NCBI GenBank assembly: GCA_021737615.1
Contig: JAIPDR010000001.1
Location: 1-59,669 of the forward strand
DNA: 59,669 nucleotides
Reading direction: 5' to 3'
Source: Desulfohalobiaceae bacterium
GTDB taxonomy: Bacteria; Desulfobacterota; Desulfovibrionia; Desulfovibrionales; Desulfothermaceae
The notes under the pieces were generated by a model, which saw nothing but the letters and a program-made list of their open reading frames with translations, ran no database searches and was not told where the DNA came from. How positions within the stretch are numbered: position 1 is the stretch's first letter; the number at the start of each line of letters is the position of its first letter. Made by a program: the position numbers and the translations under genes. Below are positions 22,739-32,629 of the stretch, piece after piece.

Positions 22739-25321
22739 TTATCCCCCGGACCTGAGGATCATCGAGTACTTGTTGTCCCAGTGCAGATACTCCCGGACAA
22801 AGCCCTGGATTTCAGCAGGAGAGATGTCCGAGGTCCTGTCAATCATGTCCCGATGGTAGTTAAGAGGCAAGCCGTAGGCCAACAGATCCGAGGCCTCGCT
22901 GCAGCGGGGGAGCAGGCCTTGCCTTCCCCGGAAATACTCCGCCTTGAGCATGTTGCGTGCCCGGTTGAGTCGCTCCGGGCCGACTGTTTCCTGCCGCAGC
23001 TGATGAATGACTTTGAAAAAACCGGAAACCGCCTGTCCCACTTTGTCGGCATAGGTCCCGATATAAAACCCCAAAAGCCCGGCCACCGGATTTGTCCAGA
23101 GCATGGGGGAAACCGCGTATCCGAGCCCCTGCCGGTCCCTGAGCTCCTTGAACAGGATCCCGTCCTGCCCGGCCAGTAGTTTTTTGACCAGGGAGGTGCA
23201 GGCATTGAGGGGGTCGCCAAGCCCGGGGACAGGAAAGGCCAGAAGGATATGGGCCTGGTTTCCCGCCTCGATTTCGAGTTCGAGTTCCTTTTCCCGTGAC
23301 CAGTCGGGAACAGACAAAGCCGGACCTGTCAACCGGACCCCGCCCTGAAGTTTTTGGGCCGCTTCCTCGATCTCGTCCTGGTCGAAATCCCCGCAGACGC
23401 TGAGCACCCATGGAAAAGCAGACTGTTGTTCCCAGAAGCCCTTAAGGTCCTCCCGCAGAAAAGCCTCGAGCCCGGCCGGATCACCCAGGTGATGGTAGCC
23501 GTAGGGACTGCCCGGAAAAAGAAAGGGGAAGATCTCCCTGGATAACAGACCAAGAGGGTGGTCCGTCCTTTCAACAATTCGGCTGGCCTGCTCAAAGGCG
23601 GATCTGGCCACCTCCTCCGGATCGAACTGCGGCGCAAGGACAACGTCCTGCAGAAGACCCAGCAAATCCGAGCTGAACCTGGAAGGAGACTTGGCCACTA
23701 TGGAAACCTGATCCCGGTTGGCCATGCCTTCAAGATCGGCCGCCCTTTTCGAGAGGAAATCCCGTATCCGGCCGGCCTCCCTTTGCCCGGCCCCCTTGGT
23801 CAGAGTCCCGGCGGTCAGGGCTGCCAGGCCCTGTTCATTTTCTTTAAGGAGCTGATCTCCGCCGAGCCAGGTCAGATCCATGCCTAGATAGGGAAGCGTG
23901 GGGTCGGGCAGCAGGACGAGACGGCAACCCCGGCTCAGTTTCTTGACCCGGGCCCGTCCATCTGCCCGGGAGGCTCTCCTGGGCCTGTTCGGCCGGGTTT
24001 GTGTGCAAGGAAAAAAGAGCTCTTTCTCCAAGTCCCCGGCCTCTATCCCGGTCTCCTTCGGCAGAAAAAAATGCCCCTGCATCTGCTGCAGGCTGAACGT
24101 GTTCAGCATGGCCTGCCGGACATCCTCCGGGCTTGCCCTTCTGATCTGTTGCAGATAGTGATCCTCCGCGGCCAGGGTCTGTTCAAAGAACTGGAAATGG
24201 CCCATCTTGGAGGCCATGCCGGCCAGGGTCTCCCTGGCCTGCAGCAGACCGTGCTCCAGATTCACCTTGGCCCGCTCCAGTTCCTCCCCGGCCGGAGGCC
24301 TGGAGGCTAGTTCCGAAATATCTTGAACCCACTTTTTCCAGAAATCGATGACCCGGGGCGGATCGAGCTGGACCTGACAATAGATCATGCCCTGCCCTTC
24401 AAGCAGCACCGGACTGATGCCCAATTCGTCGACCAGTTTTTCCTCGTACTTGTACCGGCTTGGAAATCTGGAGGAGGGGTCCCCGCCGAGGATATAGGCC
24501 GCCAGCTCCAGGAAAGGAGAAGTCAGGGCTGAAAAACAAGGAGCAGGGAAGCAAAGTCCCAGGTAGCCTTTTTTCCAGGATGTCTCCATAACTGAGACGG
24601 CCTGACTCGGGCCTGCCGCGGGCTCGAAAGGGCGGTGCCTGGAGAGCAGGGTCTTCTCCGTGCGAAAGCGCCCGAAAAGCCTCCCGGCCTTATCCAGGAC
24701 CTCTGGCTGGTCCACCTGTCCGCAGACCACCAGAAGCATGGATTGGGGAAGATAGACTCTCCGGAAATAGTCCTTGACCTTTTTAAGGTCCAGGGCCTTG
24801 ATTGTCTCCCGGTAACCGATGATCGGGTGCGCGTAGGCCGTTTTTGACCAGACCGTTTTCTGGATCTGTTCAAACAGGCAATGCCTGGGGTTGTCTTCGT
24901 TTTTCTCCAGTTCGGCCAGGACAACCTCTTTTTCGACTTCCAGGTCCTTTTCTCCGGCCGGGGTTATGCAACAGAGTTCAAAAAGGCTCTCCAGCCCCGC
25001 TGCCCAGTCATCCGCCGGGAGGTCGACCATGTATACGGTCTGGTCGAAACCAGTGGCCGCATTCAGGCTTCCCCCTCTTTTTTCGATCTGCCCGGCCACC
25101 CGCTCCGGATTTTCTCCCTGTCCTTTCCTGAAGGCCATGTGTTCGAGCATATGGCTGATGCCGGCCTCTTCAGGCTGCTCATGGCTCGAACCGGCCCGGA
25201 CGTAGAGCCTCATGACGACCAGGGGAAAACGGCGGTCCTCCTGAACGAGGATCTGCATTCCATTGGGCAGCAGGCTCAAAACCGGCCGGGAACGGACTTC
25301 TTGGGGATTGTGGTCAGTCAT
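22739..25321 (-). CDS. M16-family zinc metallopeptidase (full two-domain)
   Basis: An 860-residue insulinase-type peptidase. The inverted zinc motif HxxEH is present as ISHMLEHMAF near residue 58, and the distal glutamate lies in EVEKEVVLAELEKNEDNP near 130-147. The N-terminal M16 half is followed by a second, inactive M16_C half (from about 440, DGRARVKKLSRGCRLVLLPD), as usual. No signal peptide is evident, so the location is probably cytoplasmic. The 5' untranslated region is occupied by a dispersed repeat ending eight bases before the ATG, and no Shine-Dalgarno sequence is seen. Confidence 0.92.
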   Translation of the reverse strand: MTDHNPQEVRSRPVLSLLPNGMQILVQEDRRFPLVVMRLYVRAGSSHEQPEEAGISHMLEHMAFRKGQGENPERVAGQIEKRGGSLNAATGFDQTVYMVDLPADDWAAGLESLFELCCITPAGEKDLEVEKEVVLAELEKNEDNPRHCLFEQIQKTVWSKTAYAHPIIGYRETIKALDLKKVKDYFRRVYLPQSMLLVVCGQVDQPEVLDKAGRLFGRFRTEKTLLSRHRPFEPAAGPSQAVSVMETSWKKGYLGLCFPAPCFSALTSPFLELAAYILGGDPSSRFPSRYKYEEKLVDELGISPVLLEGQGMIYCQVQLDPPRVIDFWKKWVQDISELASRPPAGEELERAKVNLEHGLLQARETLAGMASKMGHFQFFEQTLAAEDHYLQQIRRASPEDVRQAMLNTFSLQQMQGHFFLPKETGIEAGDLEKELFFPCTQTRPNRPRRASRADGRARVKKLSRGCRLVLLPDPTLPYLGMDLTWLGGDQLLKENEQGLAALTAGTLTKGAGQREAGRIRDFLSKRAADLEGMANRDQVSIVAKSPSRFSSDLLGLLQDVVLAPQFDPEEVARSAFEQASRIVERTDHPLGLLSREIFPFLFPGSPYGYHHLGDPAGLEAFLREDLKGFWEQQSAFPWVLSVCGDFDQDEIEEAAQKLQGGVRLTGPALSVPDWSREKELELEIEAGNQAHILLAFPVPGLGDPLNACTSLVKKLLAGQDGILFKELRDRQGLGYAVSPMLWTNPVAGLLGFYIGTYADKVGQAVSGFFKVIHQLRQETVGPERLNRARNMLKAEYFRGRQGLLPRCSEASDLLAYGLPLNYHRDMIDRTSDISPAEIQGFVREYLHWDNKYSMILRSGG

Positions 25322-26229: not shown

Positions 26230-27879
26230 TCAGGATACCTTCTTCCTCATTTTTCTTCTTTGACCGGCCGTCTTGGGGTCGGCTGCTTCCCGGACTCTCC
26301 CCGGATCCGGCAATCCCTTGAAAAGGGACCAGAACTGAGGCCAGAGGCGGGTCAGTTCCCCGGGATTCTTGACTATCAGCCCGGGCCGCTTCAAGGCCAT
26401 GACCGCCAGAGCCATGCTCCACCAGGGGTGAAGCGTCTGCATTTTCACTTCCGGGCAGTCCTGCAGGTTGAGCCCGCCCTGGATCGAAAGCCGGTCATCG
26501 CTCAGGCTGTAGGCGGCCCCCAGACTGTCCAGAAGGACCAGGGCAAAATCCAGGTCCTCTCCGGGAAGGACCATGAGCTCCGCTTCTTTTTGCCTGCAGA
26601 GGACCTGAGCCAGAGCCAGCGGCAAAAGCCAGGCCTTTCCCCGGGTATCGATGGACAAGGGCTGCGTCTTTTCTCTTAAAAACTTCCCCCTGACCCCTGC
26701 GGAATCAACCGTGACCTCCATTCCCAGCTTTTCGAAAAGCTCCAGGACCGTCGCGCTTTCCGGCAGGTCCAGGGGGAACTCCCCCTGGATTCCGGCCCGG
26801 CCCCGGCTGACATAGGCCATGGCCAGCAGATATCCGCAAAAGACAGGATCCAGGGGCAGCCCGGGACACTCGGGCATGTCCAGGCGCCCCCCCGTGATCA
26901 CCCAACCTTGCTCCTGTTGACGGAAACGCCCTCCGGCCGCGGTCAGGACCCTGAAGACCCTGGGCAAATCCAAAAACAGGCCCCCAGCGTCTTCTTGTTT
27001 CACAAAGGCCTCTGCTTTCGGTTCCAGCCTTGCCGCCAGAGTCAGGACCAGGGCCTGGACCATGTCCGGGGAGGCATCAGGGGGCAGGTCCAGGCTCGCA
27101 TCGATCCTGCCGCTTGATTCCAGACGGACCGGCAGTCCGCGGCTACCGGGGACCAGGCTGATCATCCTGCCTCCCAGGGCCCGGACGATCCTTTCCACGG
27201 GCCTGAGGTCGATCAGCTTGAGACGGCTTCCCCCGGAAAAGCGGCAAACCCCAGGTTTCATCGCCGCCAGAAAGATCAAGAGGTAGAGATTGAAAGGATC
27301 CTGACCCACGAAAAGAGTTTTCCTGTCGAAATCCGGCCCTTGGCCTCCCCGGCAGGAAACCAGGTCCTTTTCCCAGAAAAATGTGCCCCCGGCCTGATTC
27401 AAGCCTTTGATGAGCTCAAAGAGAGGATCGTTCAGGACCGCGCCGGAGAGCTGCAGGGGGACCCCTGCAGCCGCCCCCATGAAAACCCACATCCTGGAGA
27501 GCAGAATGTCTCCCGGACCTTCCAGGTCCATCCGGGCCGGTTCCTTGCTCGGGCGCAACTCGAATTCCCAGTCCTTTTTTTTCTCGAGACGTTCATAGCC
27601 GAGCCCGTTGACCAGATGAAACAGGCTGTGCATCATCCGTTCATCGAGTCCCTGGGACTCGGCCTGGGCCCGCCAGTTCTGCCAGAGCTGCTTCTCCTGC
27701 CCGGGATCAACCAGAGACTTCTTTTTCTGTTTCCTGGATCCCGCTGCCTTGCCGAGCAGCCTGCTCCGCTTTCCCAGGAGCCGTATCAGGGCCCCGTCCA
27801 TTTCCTCGAGTTCAGAAGTCAAGGTTCTTTTCTTTTCCAAGCTGTGATTTTTTTCCGGCATCTGGTTGTTTCTCTTCAT
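26230..27879 (-). CDS. Chorismate mutase-like/EPSP synthase-like fusion protein, divergent
   Basis: About 549 residues. The N-terminal part (about 15-95) has the helical, charged form of an AroQ chorismate mutase (ELEEMDGALIRLLGKRSRLL). The rest follows the EPSP synthase (AroA) fold, with RLKLIDLRPVERIVRALGGR and SATVLELFEKLGMEVTVDSA in the expected order. The catalytic PGDKS-SHR loop reads GPGDILLSRM, and the GN-GT-MR loop reads VGQDPFNLYLL, so the key lysine and several PEP/shikimate ligands are missing. No other aromatic gene is adjacent. It may use another substrate or be regulatory. The start is uncertain (ATG 27879 or 27861, TTG 27888). Confidence 0.7.
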   Translation of the reverse strand: MKRNNQMPEKNHSLEKKRTLTSELEEMDGALIRLLGKRSRLLGKAAGSRKQKKKSLVDPGQEKQLWQNWRAQAESQGLDERMMHSLFHLVNGLGYERLEKKKDWEFELRPSKEPARMDLEGPGDILLSRMWVFMGAAAGVPLQLSGAVLNDPLFELIKGLNQAGGTFFWEKDLVSCRGGQGPDFDRKTLFVGQDPFNLYLLIFLAAMKPGVCRFSGGSRLKLIDLRPVERIVRALGGRMISLVPGSRGLPVRLESSGRIDASLDLPPDASPDMVQALVLTLAARLEPKAEAFVKQEDAGGLFLDLPRVFRVLTAAGGRFRQQEQGWVITGGRLDMPECPGLPLDPVFCGYLLAMAYVSRGRAGIQGEFPLDLPESATVLELFEKLGMEVTVDSAGVRGKFLREKTQPLSIDTRGKAWLLPLALAQVLCRQKEAELMVLPGEDLDFALVLLDSLGAAYSLSDDRLSIQGGLNLQDCPEVKMQTLHPWWSMALAVMALKRPGLIVKNPGELTRLWPQFWSLFKGLPDPGRVREAADPKTAGQRRKMRKKVS

Positions 27880-28295
27880 CTGGGTCAAGGTTTATCATTA
27901 AAAGAGGTCTTCAGGCTCATTTCGAGAGCACCTGCGGCCTCTGGGCTCGGGATCCGCTGGCCCGAATCGGATATTTACGGGAAAATAACAGTATCGTAAA
28001 GCAGGCGGACAAGGCAAGACAGAAAGAAAAAAACAGGCAGCTACAAAAAGCCTGAAATCCCCTGATGACCCGGATGCACCAAGTCTGATCTTTTTTCTTG
28101 ACAACTTGATAAAAATTTCACAAAGTGTTTTCACCTTTTTGCATCAGCCAATCACAACAGGTCTTTGGTTTTTGTTTATACATTATTTTCAAATGACTAT
28201 ATGTTTCTTAAGGCGCTGAAATCAGGACTGTGAAAATTGTATCGGCCAAAATCGTGAAAGCAGATACAAACGTATAACCCATAAGGAGACTGCAC
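27880..28295. other. Upstream region of sat
   Basis: About 400 bases without a gene, AT-richer than the surroundings, dividing the minus-strand EPSP-like gene from sat. It contains a consensus -35 hexamer TTGACA (28098-28103), a Rex-like operator (28106-28123) and, directly before sat, AAGGAG. No clear -10 was found, and the leader to sat would be long (about 150 bases or more). Confidence 0.5.
28106..28123 (+). promoter_or_regulatory. Candidate Rex (redox repressor) operator upstream of sat
   Basis: TTGATAAAAATTTCACAA fits the Rex palindrome TTGTGAA-N4-TTCACAA, with a perfect right half and five of seven in the left half. It begins two bases after a consensus TTGACA hexamer, so binding would block RNA polymerase. 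Rex is reported to repress sat in Desulfovibrio vulgaris and senses the NADH/NAD+ ratio. The site itself is a pattern match by eye. Confidence 0.65.
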
Positions 28296-29549
28296 ATGGC
28301 TGAGATAGGACATGGAGGCAAAGAGATCCGGGAAAGAATCATGAAGCCGGCCGAGGCCAGGGAAAAGATCAAGGGTTTGACCCAGATCCCGGTCCGTAAA
28401 CAGATCGCCAACGAGATCATCAACCTGGCCTATGGATGGTTCACTCCCCTGGAAGGATTCATGGGCAAGGACGACGTCGAGGCAGTGGTCAAGAACATGC
28501 GCCTGGCCAACGGCACCATCTGGCCCATCCCCATTCTCTTCGATCTTTCCGAAAAGGAGATCCAGGACTACGGAGTCAAGCCGGGAACATCGGTTGTGCT
28601 CAACTACCAGGACAACCCCATGGCCCTGTTTGAGGTCAGCGAAGTCTTCGAGTACGACAAGGCCGCCATCTGTCAGGCCGTGCTGGGCACCACCGAGGAG
28701 AAGCACCCCGGCTGCGCCCGGACCTACAGCTATAAAGACAAGTTCGTGGCCGGAAAAATCACCCTGCTCAAGGAACCCAGAATCAACGAGCCCTTTGGAC
28801 CTTACTTCCTGCCGCCCTTGAAGATGCGGGCCATCATCAAGGAAAAGGGCTGGAACCGGACAGTGGCCCATCAGACCAGAAATGTCCCCCACACCGGGCA
28901 CGAATGGCTGATGAAGGGCGCCTTTTTCCAGACCTACGGCGACCTGCCCATTGAAAAACCCGAAGTGGGAGTGGTGGTCAATGCCATCATCGGTGAAAAA
29001 CGGGTCAAGGATTACATCGACGAGGCCATCATCCTCTGCCAGGACGAGTTGGAAAAGGCCGGCTATTTCGGCCCGCACAATCACTTGACCTCTCTGACTT
29101 TCTGGGATATGCGCTACGCCGGACCCAAGGAAGCTGTTTTCCATGCCATATTACGGGCCAACCTGGGCATCACGCACCACATGTACGGTCGTGACCACGC
29201 CGGAGTCGGCGACTACTACGGCGCCTACGAGGCTCACCATCTCCTGGACACCGTGGGCAAAGAACTGGACATCACTCCGGTCTATTCCATGAACTGGCTC
29301 TACTGTCCGGTCTGCGCCGAAATCACCAGCGAGGGCCTCTGCAACCACAAGGACAAGCAGCAGAAATTCAGCGGCACCCTGATCCGGAGCATCGTCACCG
29401 ACGGGGTCAAACCGCCCAGGTTGATCATCAGGCCGGAAGTCTTCGATCAAATCATGGAATGCGCCGAAAAGTACGGTGAGGGCTCGCCCTTTGTCAGCGA
29501 AAAGTACCTGGAAAAGAGGACCCCGGTCTTCAATATCGAACCGCTCTAG
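28296..29549 (+). CDS. sat: Sulfate adenylyltransferase (ATP sulfurylase)
   Basis: A 417-residue homo-oligomeric ATP sulfurylase that activates sulfate with ATP to adenylylsulfate (APS) and pyrophosphate, the first cytoplasmic step of dissimilatory sulfate reduction. The catalytic signature TRNVPHTGHEWLMKGAF (HTGH at about 199-202) and GRDHAGVGDYYGAYEAH (from about 298) are intact, and the zinc-type cysteines YCPVCAEITSEGLC (about 342-355) are those of the dissimilatory enzyme. The length is normal. AAGGAG lies about eight bases before the ATG. It heads the sulfate locus and is probably under Rex control. Confidence 0.98.
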   Translation: MAEIGHGGKEIRERIMKPAEAREKIKGLTQIPVRKQIANEIINLAYGWFTPLEGFMGKDDVEAVVKNMRLANGTIWPIPILFDLSEKEIQDYGVKPGTSVVLNYQDNPMALFEVSEVFEYDKAAICQAVLGTTEEKHPGCARTYSYKDKFVAGKITLLKEPRINEPFGPYFLPPLKMRAIIKEKGWNRTVAHQTRNVPHTGHEWLMKGAFFQTYGDLPIEKPEVGVVVNAIIGEKRVKDYIDEAIILCQDELEKAGYFGPHNHLTSLTFWDMRYAGPKEAVFHAILRANLGITHHMYGRDHAGVGDYYGAYEAHHLLDTVGKELDITPVYSMNWLYCPVCAEITSEGLCNHKDKQQKFSGTLIRSIVTDGVKPPRLIIRPEVFDQIMECAEKYGEGSPFVSEKYLEKRTPVFNIEPL

Positions 29550-30088: not shown

Positions 30089-30562
30089 ATGCCTAGTTAC
30101 GTTAACCCGGAAAAATGCGACGGTTGCAAAGGCGGAGAAAAGACAGCCTGCATGTACGTCTGCCCCAACGACCTCATGATCCTGGACGAGAAAGAAATGA
30201 AGGCTTACAACCTGGAACCGGATCAGTGCTGGGAGTGCTACTCCTGCATCAAGATCTGCCCCCAGGGCGCTATTACCGCCAGGCCCTACGCAGACTTCGC
30301 CCCCATGGGCGGGACCAGCATTCCCCTGCGCAGCGCCGAAGATATCATGTGGACCATCCAGTTCCGTTCCGGTGAGGTCAAGCGGTTCAAATTCCCCATC
30401 CGGACCACTCCGGAAGGATCCATCCAGCCCTTCGAGGGCAAACCTGAGGCCGATGATCTGGAGAGCCCGCTGTTTTTCAACGAAAAGGAACTGAAATCCC
30501 CCAAGGAAGTCCTGAACAAGAAAGTGGACATCCAGGATGCGGATTATACCGAAGTCATCTAA
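30089..30562 (+). CDS. aprB: Adenylylsulfate reductase, beta (iron-sulfur) subunit
   Basis: A 157-residue electron-transfer subunit of APS reductase. Two [4Fe-4S] clusters are bound by CDGCKGGEKTACMYVCPNDL (about 11-30) and CWECYSCIKICPQGAI (about 47-62). The longer spacing in the first motif is characteristic of AprB. The C-terminal tail (about 100-157) wraps around AprA in known structures and is present. It passes electrons, probably from the Qmo complex, to the FAD of AprA. GAAGGAGG precedes the ATG, and aprA follows 69 bases later. Confidence 0.98.
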   Translation: MPSYVNPEKCDGCKGGEKTACMYVCPNDLMILDEKEMKAYNLEPDQCWECYSCIKICPQGAITARPYADFAPMGGTSIPLRSAEDIMWTIQFRSGEVKRFKFPIRTTPEGSIQPFEGKPEADDLESPLFFNEKELKSPKEVLNKKVDIQDADYTEVI

Positions 30563-30631: not shown

Positions 30632-32629
30632 ATGCCTCAGTTACCAACCAAGAACGTAACCACAGGTCTTGCCCTGGCTGAACCGGAAGTCGTGGAAGTG
30701 GAAACCGACGCCCTGCTTATCGGCGGCGGTATGGGCTGCACCGGCGCCGCCGTGGAAGCGGTTCGCTGGGGGGACAAATACGGCGTCAAGGTCCTGCTCG
30801 TGGACAAAGCCGCCCTGGAGCGCTCCGGCGCCGTAGCCCCGGGACTTTCGGCCATCAACACCTATCTTGGCAAGAACGATCCCGACGATTACGTGCGCAT
30901 GGTCCGCACCGACCTGATGCACGTCGTCCGGGAAGACCTGATCTTCGATCTGGGCCGGCACGTGGACGACTCCGTCCACCTCTTCGAAGAGTGGGGGCTG
31001 CCCATCTGGGTCAGCAAGGACGGCAAGAACCTGGACGGGGCCAAGGCCCAGTCCGAAGGCTTGAAGGTCAGGGAAGGCGCCGACGTGGTCCGTTCCGGCC
31101 GCTGGCAGTGCATGATCAACGGGGAATCCTACAAGGTCATCGTGGCCGAGGCCGCCAAGAACGCCCTGGGCGAAGACCGCTATCTGGAAAGGGTCTTCGT
31201 GGTCAAGCTGCTCCTGGACGCCAACCAGCCAAACCGGGTGGCCGGTGCAGTCGGTTTCTCCGTCCGGGAAAACAAGGTCTACATCTTCAAGGCCAAGGGC
31301 ATGATCGTGGCCTGCGGCGGTGCGGTCAACGTCTTCAGGCCCCGCTCCACCGGCGAAGGCATGGGCCGGGCCTGGTATCCGGTCTGGAACGCCGGTTCCA
31401 CCTACACCATGTGCGCCCAGGTCGGCGCGGAAATGACCATGATGGAAAACAGGTTCGTCCCGGCCCGGTTCAAGGACGGCTACGGCCCTGTCGGTGCCTG
31501 GTTCCTGCTCTTCAAGGCCAAGGCCACCAACTACAAGGGCGAGGACTACACCCAGACCAACAAGGCCATGCTCAAGCCTTATGAAGACCGCAATTACGTG
31601 GCCGGTCCGGTTGTTCCCACCTGCCTCAGAAACCACATGATGCTCAGGGAAATGCGCGAAGGACGCGGACCGATCTACATGGACACGGCCACTGCGCTGC
31701 AGACCTCCTTCAAGGAACTGAACAAGAACGAGCAGAAACATCTTGAAGCCGAAGCCTGGGAAGACTTCCTGGATATGGCTCCGGGCCAGGCCAACCTCTG
31801 GGCGGCCATGAACATCAAGCCCGAGGAAATCGGTTCCGAGATCATGCCCACCGAGCCCTACCTCCTCGGCTCCCACTCCGGCTGCTGCGGCATCTGGGTC
31901 TCCGGTCCGGACGAAGACTGGGTCCCGGACGACTACAAGATCAAGGCCGACAACGGCAAGATCTACAACCGCATGACCACGGTCAACGGCCTGTTCACCT
32001 GCGCCGACGGCGTCGGTGCTTCCGGGCACAAGTTCTCCTCCGGATCCCATGCCGAAGGCCGCATCGCCGCCAAGCAGCTGATCCGCTGGTGCGTGGACCA
32101 CAAGGACTACCAGCCGGCTTTGAAGGAATCCGCCGAAGAGCTGAAGAAAATGGTTTACCAGCCCTGGTACACCTTTGAAGAGAACAAGCACGAATCCACC
32201 GATCCCAACGTCAACCCGCTGTACATCACCCCGAGAAACTACATGATGCGGCTGGTCAAGCACACCGACGAGTACGGCGGCGGCTGCGCCACATTGTACA
32301 CCACCAATGCGGCCATGCTCAAGGTGGGCTTCCATCTCCTGGACATGCTGGAGGAAGACGCCGCCAAGCTCGGGGCCAGAGACCTGCACGAACTGCTCAG
32401 ATGCTGGGAACAGTTCCACAGGCTGTGGACCGTGCGCCTGCACCTGCAGCACATCAACTTCCGCAAGGAATCCAGGTATCCCGGATTCTACTATCGGGCC
32501 GACTTTATCGGTCTGGACGACGCCAAGTGGAAATGTTTCGCCAACTCCAAGCACGACCCGGAAACCGGCAAGACCACCTTCTTCAAGCGTCCCTATATCC
32601 AGATCATCCCTGATCCAATGGCCCCGTAA
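30632..32629 (+). CDS. aprA: Adenylylsulfate reductase, alpha (flavoprotein) subunit
   Basis: The 665-residue catalytic subunit, which reduces APS to sulfite and AMP at a non-covalent FAD. The dinucleotide-binding start is DALLIGGGMGCTGAAVEAV (about 32-50), followed by SGAVAPGLSAIN. YLLGSHSGCCGIWVSGPDED (about 409-428) and the later GLFTCADGVGASGHKFSSGS (about 455-474) are highly conserved in dissimilatory AprA. Length and order are those of the sulfate-reducer enzyme. It works as an AB heterodimer in the cytoplasm, docked to the Qmo complex, and a strong terminator follows 13 bases after its stop. Confidence 0.98.
   Translation: MPQLPTKNVTTGLALAEPEVVEVETDALLIGGGMGCTGAAVEAVRWGDKYGVKVLLVDKAALERSGAVAPGLSAINTYLGKNDPDDYVRMVRTDLMHVVREDLIFDLGRHVDDSVHLFEEWGLPIWVSKDGKNLDGAKAQSEGLKVREGADVVRSGRWQCMINGESYKVIVAEAAKNALGEDRYLERVFVVKLLLDANQPNRVAGAVGFSVRENKVYIFKAKGMIVACGGAVNVFRPRSTGEGMGRAWYPVWNAGSTYTMCAQVGAEMTMMENRFVPARFKDGYGPVGAWFLLFKAKATNYKGEDYTQTNKAMLKPYEDRNYVAGPVVPTCLRNHMMLREMREGRGPIYMDTATALQTSFKELNKNEQKHLEAEAWEDFLDMAPGQANLWAAMNIKPEEIGSEIMPTEPYLLGSHSGCCGIWVSGPDEDWVPDDYKIKADNGKIYNRMTTVNGLFTCADGVGASGHKFSSGSHAEGRIAAKQLIRWCVDHKDYQPALKESAEELKKMVYQPWYTFEENKHESTDPNVNPLYITPRNYMMRLVKHTDEYGGGCATLYTTNAAMLKVGFHLLDMLEEDAAKLGARDLHELLRCWEQFHRLWTVRLHLQHINFRKESRYPGFYYRADFIGLDDAKWKCFANSKHDPETGKTTFFKRPYIQIIPDPMAP

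Follow-up and report, generated by a model that had tools for sequence, protein, structure and literature searches.

The window, by which we mean the whole 59,669-nucleotide stretch of Desulfohalobiaceae DNA under analysis, carries on its minus strand (26230..27879) a gene whose predicted product of 549 amino acid residues, read from an ATG at 27879 to a stop codon at 26230-26232, joins two enzyme-like parts in a single chain. A chorismate mutase (CM)-like helical domain (residues 22-89; 27613..27816, minus strand) stands ahead of a two-domain fold resembling that of EPSP synthase (EPSPS) (residues 108-525; 26305..27558, minus strand), delineated with hhalign and by the PDB matches of the family profile, and the protein ends in a basic tail (residues 540-549; 26233..26262, minus strand). 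An alternative start at Met7 (27861) is possible, the called start of the ortholog from locus L002 aligning at that position. Arg545 of the tail is found in 32 of 34 orthologues, whose tails read KRRRRIV, KRKRIRI and similar; the median pI of the whole fusion proteins is 8.3 compared to 6.5 for canonical AroA, and in the L079 and L080 proteins the final 20 residues carry a net negative charge. On the ORF map, a divergent intergenic region of 416 bp (27880..28295) separates the fusion gene from sat (ATP sulfurylase; 28296..29549, plus strand), the first gene of a divergent sat-aprBA-qmo stretch that includes aprB (30089-30562, plus strand) and aprA (30632-32629, plus strand) and serves here as context only; these three genes were named by eye from their translations. 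The downstream neighbor (22739-25321, minus strand) is an 860-residue frame recognized by eye as an M16-type peptidase, and a frame of this kind is kept beside the fusion elsewhere in the same genus (L002, L062). No Rfam family matched the window at gathering scores, and no tRNA was found in it.

The proposal, made in the initial annotation from the letters alone, that a CM-like segment is fused to an EPSPS-like fold was confirmed by profile searches. Searched against Pfam, the window protein matched CM_2 alone (PF01817; E 2.4e-9; 37.7 bits against a cut-off of 27; residues 22-89), with no match to PF00275; among 24 orthologues, CM_2 was matched by 22 and PF00275 by 18 at E ≤ 0.1, the only other Pfam hit in the set being one marginal coiled-coil match. 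The NCBIfam aroA model (TIGR01356) aligned weakly over nearly its full length (residues 133-523), with 44.7 bits against the 287.25 bits set as the equivalog cut-off for EPSP synthase, and none of the NCBIfam CM models listed was matched at its cut-off. Alignment with hhalign to 17 canonical AroA proteins of the same order covered the whole EPSPS fold (probability 99.95, E 1.3e-36). When the family profile was compared to solved structures with hmmsearch, the best match was the EPSP synthase 3nvs (E 6.1e-27), 1g6s, another EPSP synthase, scored E 5.5e-22 and the solved chorismate mutase 1ecm E 0.0018; the window protein used as a single query matched no solved structure. An AlphaFold2 model built from a two-sequence input reached a pLDDT of 35.7.

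To assess whether the EPSPS-like part retains the chemistry of its namesake, we counted 13 catalytic or ligand residues (K22, S23, R27, R124, S169, S170, Q171, D313, K340, E341, R344, R386 and K411), in E. coli numbering, their letters having been checked against the sequence; the placement of K340, E341 and R344 is uncertain owing to an adjoining insert in the E. coli protein. The count was made in 34 fusion proteins, drawn from 33 of the 58 matching genomes, and in 18 canonical AroA proteins of the same order, that is, the 17 mentioned above and the G001 protein from L137, three wrong ORFs (L082, L097 and L098) having been left out. All 13 residues were kept in 18 of 18 canonical proteins; nine fusion proteins kept none of them, 23 kept one and two kept two. 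K22, R27, R124, Q171, D313, K340 and R344 were kept in none of the 34, R386 in three and K411 in one, the residue most often kept being S169 (15/34), and nothing in the fusion family corresponds to N336 and W337. Glutamate replaces D313 in 20 of the 34 proteins, and the conserved D344 of the fusion aligns in the profile alignment with D242 rather than with D313, which is lost. The two motif substitutions that had been read from the translation proved to be present as described: in PGDILLSRM the positions of K22, S23 and R27 are taken by I, L and M, and in GQDPFNLY those of N94, G96 and R100 by Q, P and Y, as judged by alignment. The absence of EPSPS catalytic motifs is thus borne out, with zero to two of 13 residues per orthologue.

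In the N-terminal part, R38 and E62 are found in 34 of 34 fusion proteins, R49 in 33 and D58 in 32. Placed by profile alignment to the PheA of the same genome (R11 to E52) and by counting onward (Q88), in the E. coli chorismate mutase numbering, the CM active-site residues R28 and E52 are kept in all 34 proteins and the place of K39 is held by arginine in 33; R11 is kept in five, R51 in none and Q88 in one. As aligned, the AroQ active-site set of R11, R28, K39, R51, E52 and Q88 is incomplete throughout the fusion family.

Could the fusion nonetheless be a divergent yet working EPSP synthase or chorismate mutase? Its homology is full-length, R28 and E52 of the mutase are kept, and no canonical aroA was found in the window's own genome assembly, which is 89.87% complete and split into 280 contigs. 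Against this stand the loss of K22, R27, R124, D313, K340 and R344 in every one of the 34 proteins and the presence of canonical aroA and pheA in relatives. The search for a second, canonical aroA that the initial annotation had called for found none in the own assembly, but contig C146 of that assembly breaks off within pheA (bases 2-412), the gene after which relatives carry aroA. The gene order aldolase-DHQS II-pheA-aroA is found in G002, G006, G031 and G049, with tyrA in the same stretch, and in G001 aroA and tyrA lie on a contig that starts with the apparent end of pheA. PMC4162548 shows D. hydrothermalis with this aldolase-DHQS II-pheA-aroA order as well. With the tyrA of L137 as a query, tyrA was likewise not found in the window's genome, this query having found tyrA in L136, L139, L140 and L141. 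The idea that the fusion is the sole aroA of its genome was rejected in view of this assembly gap, and the claim that it is not an ordinary aroA is upheld by the canonical aroA found in both other genomes of the genus. Two further genomes, G626 and G628 (genus g293), have chorismate synthase and the fusion together with a single aroA match each (E 5.3e-17 and 2.6e-16), far from the cut-off; their congeners G625 and G627 match aroA more strongly (E 2.5e-59 and 9.6e-49), and the shortfall may reflect assembly gaps or a divergent aroA. On balance we regard a working enzyme of either kind as extremely improbable.

Phylogenetic reconstruction placed 27 fusion rows in one clade (support 100/100) on a long stem and the 18 canonical AroA rows of the order in a separate clade (100/100). 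The fusion is an old paralogue of aroA and not aroA itself. It lies on a different contig from the aromatic cluster in G001, G002, G006 and G031, and approximately 12, 17 and 18 kb from canonical aroA in G043, G051 and G041, respectively.

The window protein found a match in 58 of 61 relatives, so that the family is beyond chance; those without a match were G008 (84% complete), G039 and G049, and some matches came in pieces, as in G010. In a survey of Desulfovibrionales genomes at least 90% complete (the window's own genome, at 89.87%, falls just below), 225 of 248 had the fusion, with E-values no worse than 4.9e-45. The weakest of these (G513, 4.9e-45) barely exceeds the strongest canonical AroA from outside the order (3.6e-43) and is possibly a fragment; the second weakest match is 1.2e-66. 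The 23 genomes without the fusion (G448, three of g17, six of g277, G540 and 12 of g292) all belong to one family, the gene being absent from five genera (g17, g264, g277, g279 and g292); 13 gave no match and 10 gave weak matches (E 1.5e-8 to 5.6e-17) that we took to be canonical AroA. Across a phylum sample of 394 genomes, all matches of at least 355 bits lay inside the order, and the best match outside it, at 146.7 bits, covered the AroA part only. Within the genomes surveyed, the fusion family was thus found only in this order. A very divergent fusion hidden in genus g17 was considered and rejected, an hmmsearch --max search of one stretch each of G039 and G049 having given a best E of 0.45. 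G003 has two copies (C54:6819-8366 and C76:2107-3678), each 37% identical to the query, which may reflect duplication or contamination (5%).

Comparison of the window gene to its L002 ortholog (83% identical) yielded a dN/dS of approximately 0.19 over the whole gene, with 0.066 for the CM-like part, 0.19 for the EPSPS-like part and 0.53 for the last 24 codons, the latter indicating weak constraint. The fusion gene is under purifying selection. With its catalytic residues lost, its gene under such selection and the protein retained across the order, the fusion qualifies as a pseudoenzyme, as far as its sequence allows this to be judged.

The loss of the old residues leaves room for an enzyme with a new substrate, in which the EPSPS-like cleft or the CM-like pocket would have been rebuilt for another reaction, one of the two roles offered in the initial annotation. 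Both folds are whole, R28, E52 and a basic residue in the position of K39 remain in the CM pocket, and new letters have become conserved in some columns in or near the cleft: Y199, which stands where R100 is expected, is found in 31 of the 34 proteins, and N150, D151 and K221, which are in or near the cleft, rank among the top 40 conserved columns. An enzyme's cleft usually stays its most conserved part even after a change of substrate. We therefore compared the cleft columns to the rest of the EPSPS-like domain in 27 non-redundant rows, seven near-duplicates having been removed from the 34. In canonical AroA the 22 cleft columns had a mean conservation of 0.840 versus 0.617, with none of 20,000 random draws as high (P<5e-5). 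In the fusion, the 20 of these columns that could be mapped had a mean of 0.442 versus 0.481 for the domain, the probability of being as high by chance being 0.86. The fusion cleft is conserved no better than the remainder of the domain. Its most conserved columns are W517, W487, W513, N505, P514, P250, P244, P122, F516, R238 and E254; among cleft positions, Y199, P485 and F196 stand at the 96th, 87th and 83rd percentile, and a ligand site may lie around these three residues. K22, R27, R124, K340 and R344 are absent from all 34 proteins, R386 and K411 nearly so, and N336 and W337 are without counterpart. The background-level conservation of the old cleft columns as a set weakens the reading as a new enzyme, although Y199, F196 and P485 are well conserved; we consider it unlikely. 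In three g8 genomes (G018, G026 and G042), the fusion matches in two pieces within a single open frame of 643-660 codons, a pattern suggesting that the EPSPS-like part is interrupted midway by an insertion or a divergent segment.

The surroundings of the gene were compared across 25 loci from 24 genomes, some of the flanks being short and ending at contig ends. The fusion lies head-to-head with aprB/aprA in 12 of the 25, in four families, ten of these also having sat and ten qmoA in reach; on its downstream side and the same strand, acn is found in 11 loci and ppiD in 11. The statement that the gene stands alone accordingly holds within the window but not elsewhere, where it has a recurring context (aprB/sat in 12 of 25 loci, acn in 11, ppiD in 11). 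The aconitase of D. vulgaris is DVU_1064 according to PMC10920352. Assignment of the D. vulgaris ortholog of the fusion to the adjacent DVU1063 is unsupported, the papers found for DVU1063 concerning response regulators and sigma-54. In G049, which is devoid of the fusion, the aromatic cluster directly adjoins aprB/aprA (L140, G049:C1:740000-756000).

Two genomes proved informative as to what the fusion depends on: G452 (1.7 Mb, four contigs, 99% complete) and G542 (2.8 Mb, 98% complete) match the fusion at E 5.2e-106 and 1.7e-109, and searches of both whole genomes revealed no chorismate synthase (aroC) and no CM_2 match. Their best matches to the aroA model (E 9.0e-26 and 3.2e-24, respectively) are not near the cut-off. 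Of the 20 genomes in this comparison, the remaining 18 do have chorismate synthase. Contig C1 of G452, a single-contig chromosome of 1.46 Mb (1,457,619 bases), was read in 73 stretches and contains one full-length fusion of 574 codons (G452:C1:969129-970850; L203). This protein keeps R38, E62, W69, R238, P244, P250, R252, E254, W487, N505, P514, W517 and the RRRI tail; the stretch holding R49 and D58 is absent, and W66, N91, Y95, G257, D344, G366, W513 and F516 differ. Its gene overlaps, by eye, the start of a thiD-like frame, with gyrA/gyrB-like frames nearby. At E 1e-4, AroA (17 queries plus two repeats), PheA, DHQS II, aldolase and TyrA were not found on this chromosome, and Sat, AprA, AprB, QmoA and aconitase queries gave no match; MurA, used as a control, PpiD and the fusion were found. 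Query controls were drawn from the family of G452 (L140, L141, L079, L145, L146 and L074): the same AroA, PheA, DHQS II, aldolase and TyrA queries succeed in two genomes of that family (L140, L141), as do the AprA, AprB and QmoA queries at L079 and L145, the Sat query being the one without such a control. The fusion can persist without detectable chorismate synthesis.

These observations bear on two further explanations. The first, whose sensor role was also put forward in the initial annotation, is that the fusion senses or allosterically regulates aromatic biosynthesis, binding chorismate, prephenate or shikimate 3-phosphate (S3P). Both domains derive from the aromatic pathway, DAHP synthases elsewhere are regulated by CM-like domains, the strongest constraint in the fusion falls on its CM-like domain (dN/dS 0.066), and in three genomes (G043, G051 and G041) a distance of 12-18 kb separates the gene from canonical aroA. 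But the residues for S3P and PEP are lost, the gene is on a separate contig from the aromatic cluster in four genomes (G001, G002, G006, G031), and the protein persists in G452 and G542, where no chorismate synthase, no CM_2 match and no aroA near the cut-off was found, the G452 copy keeping most of the family-specific residues. The role of pathway sensor is disfavored because a full-length copy persists in G452, where aroA, aroC, pheA, DHQS II and tyrA were not found, and we hold it to be quite improbable. G452 may import aromatic amino acids, with the fusion sensing Phe, Tyr or Trp themselves. The second explanation, a part in dissimilatory sulfate reduction or a regulator for it, draws on the head-to-head arrangement with sat-aprBA-qmo, sat and/or aprB being the divergent neighbor in 12 of 25 loci from four families. 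In the other 13 loci the flanks covered, a number of them short, show no such neighbor, the linkage is explained by shared ancestral gene order, and aprA, aprB and qmoA were not found on the G452 chromosome that keeps the fusion, using queries that succeed in L079 and L145, nor was sat, for which the query had no family control. We consider this explanation very improbable.

The computations themselves show that both domains are homologous to the known enzymes, that each has lost catalytic residues, that the gene is under purifying selection and that it survives in a genome with no detectable aromatic pathway. Both folds lack catalytic residues yet are kept, even where the pathway is missing, and thus appear to serve another purpose. 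At about even confidence, we take the fusion to be a double pseudoenzyme, a non-catalytic binding or scaffold protein that works independently of chorismate. In an old gene, a CM-like helical domain would have been fused ahead of an EPSP synthase paralogue and both catalytic sites lost, and the product would then have been kept across most of the order for a binding or scaffolding role in which chorismate is not needed. The protein probably dimerizes through its CM-like helices, as AroQ proteins do; the retained half-pocket of R38, R49 and E62 may hold a small carboxylate; the EPSPS-like clam may present new conserved surfaces to a partner, namely the R238-P244-P250-E254 loop and the NPG-LT-LWP-FW segment; and the basic tail may help docking on that partner or on nucleic acid. 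Counting against the double-pseudoenzyme reading are the 23 of 248 genomes that do without the protein, its location within some 12-18 kb of canonical aroA in G043, G051 and G041, the good conservation of Y199, F196 and P485 at cleft positions, the glutamate in place of D313 in 20 of 34 proteins, and the genomes G626 and G628 with their chorismate synthase and fusion but no aroA match near the cut-off. More tentatively, and at somewhat less than even confidence, both folds may have been recruited once, early in Desulfovibrionales, into a core non-aromatic function, for example as a scaffold or nucleic-acid-associated protein; the core importance of the fusion is suggested by its retention on a reduced 1.46-Mb chromosome devoid of detectable shikimate-pathway, aconitase and apr-qmo genes.

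Compared to known systems, the fusion shares with EPSP synthase (AroA; PF00275, TIGR01356; 1g6s, 3nvs) the whole two-domain fold along a full-length alignment; it differs in retaining at most two of 13 catalytic residues, in scoring 44.7 versus 287.25 bits, in its extra N-terminal CM-like domain and in its location on another contig than the aromatic cluster in the four genomes compared. With AroQ chorismate mutase and PheA (PF01817; 1ecm) it shares the helical CM_2 domain, R28, E52 and a basic residue at K39; unlike these proteins, it is mostly devoid of R11, R51 and Q88 and has an EPSPS-like partner domain in place of prephenate dehydratase. Fungal regulators of the QutA/QutR type are AROM-derived proteins in which shikimate-pathway domains, including that of EPSPS, have turned non-catalytic; they carry a DNA-binding region and are tied to quinate use, whereas the fusion has no DNA-binding domain in Pfam and occurs where the pathway can be absent. 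In DAHP synthases with regulatory CM-like domains, the CM fold serves for binding and the partner enzyme is active within the pathway; in the fusion, by contrast, the second domain has also lost its catalytic residues. We found no paper in the open-license literature recognizable as being about a CM-like/EPSPS-like fusion. Its unusual features are the fusion itself, the double catalytic loss and the outliving of the pathway; pseudoenzymes derived from metabolic enzymes are, as a general kind, already known. EPSP synthase is the target of glyphosate and a model of enzyme mechanism, and, if the present interpretation is correct, such an order-wide paralogue, with its fold intact, its chemistry gone and its presence outlasting that of the pathway, would clearly exemplify the repurposing of a metabolic enzyme. 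Since the fusion resembles aroA or chorismate mutase, pathway reconstructions in Desulfovibrionales could miscount it. The reduced chromosome and the genera without the protein offer natural tests of its function.

In at least 20 loci, and in more outside the measured set, the 3′ end of the fusion gene is overlapped in a shifted frame by a small ORF encoding a coiled-coil protein of 67-101 residues, mostly 80-90 (L010:3065-3313, L006:3068-3334, L012:3026-3286 and others). The ORF starts 23-56 nt before the end of the last codon of the fusion in the 20 loci measured from 35 fusion records. It matches no Pfam family at the cut-off, its sub-threshold matches looking like chance coiled-coil similarity. 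A role as an obligate partner of the fusion was considered and rejected: no match to the ORF came from the window's genus (G000-G002), G005 or the nine g13 genomes among these relatives, all of which have the fusion, and it is present in G039 and G049, from which the fusion is absent. Its profile matches 47 of the 61 relatives. In g17, the slot of the fusion is occupied by a frame resembling, by eye, an aldehyde dehydrogenase (G049:C1, approximately 3536106-3537770, L142; G039:C73, L143), beside which the coiled-coil ORF has been retained.
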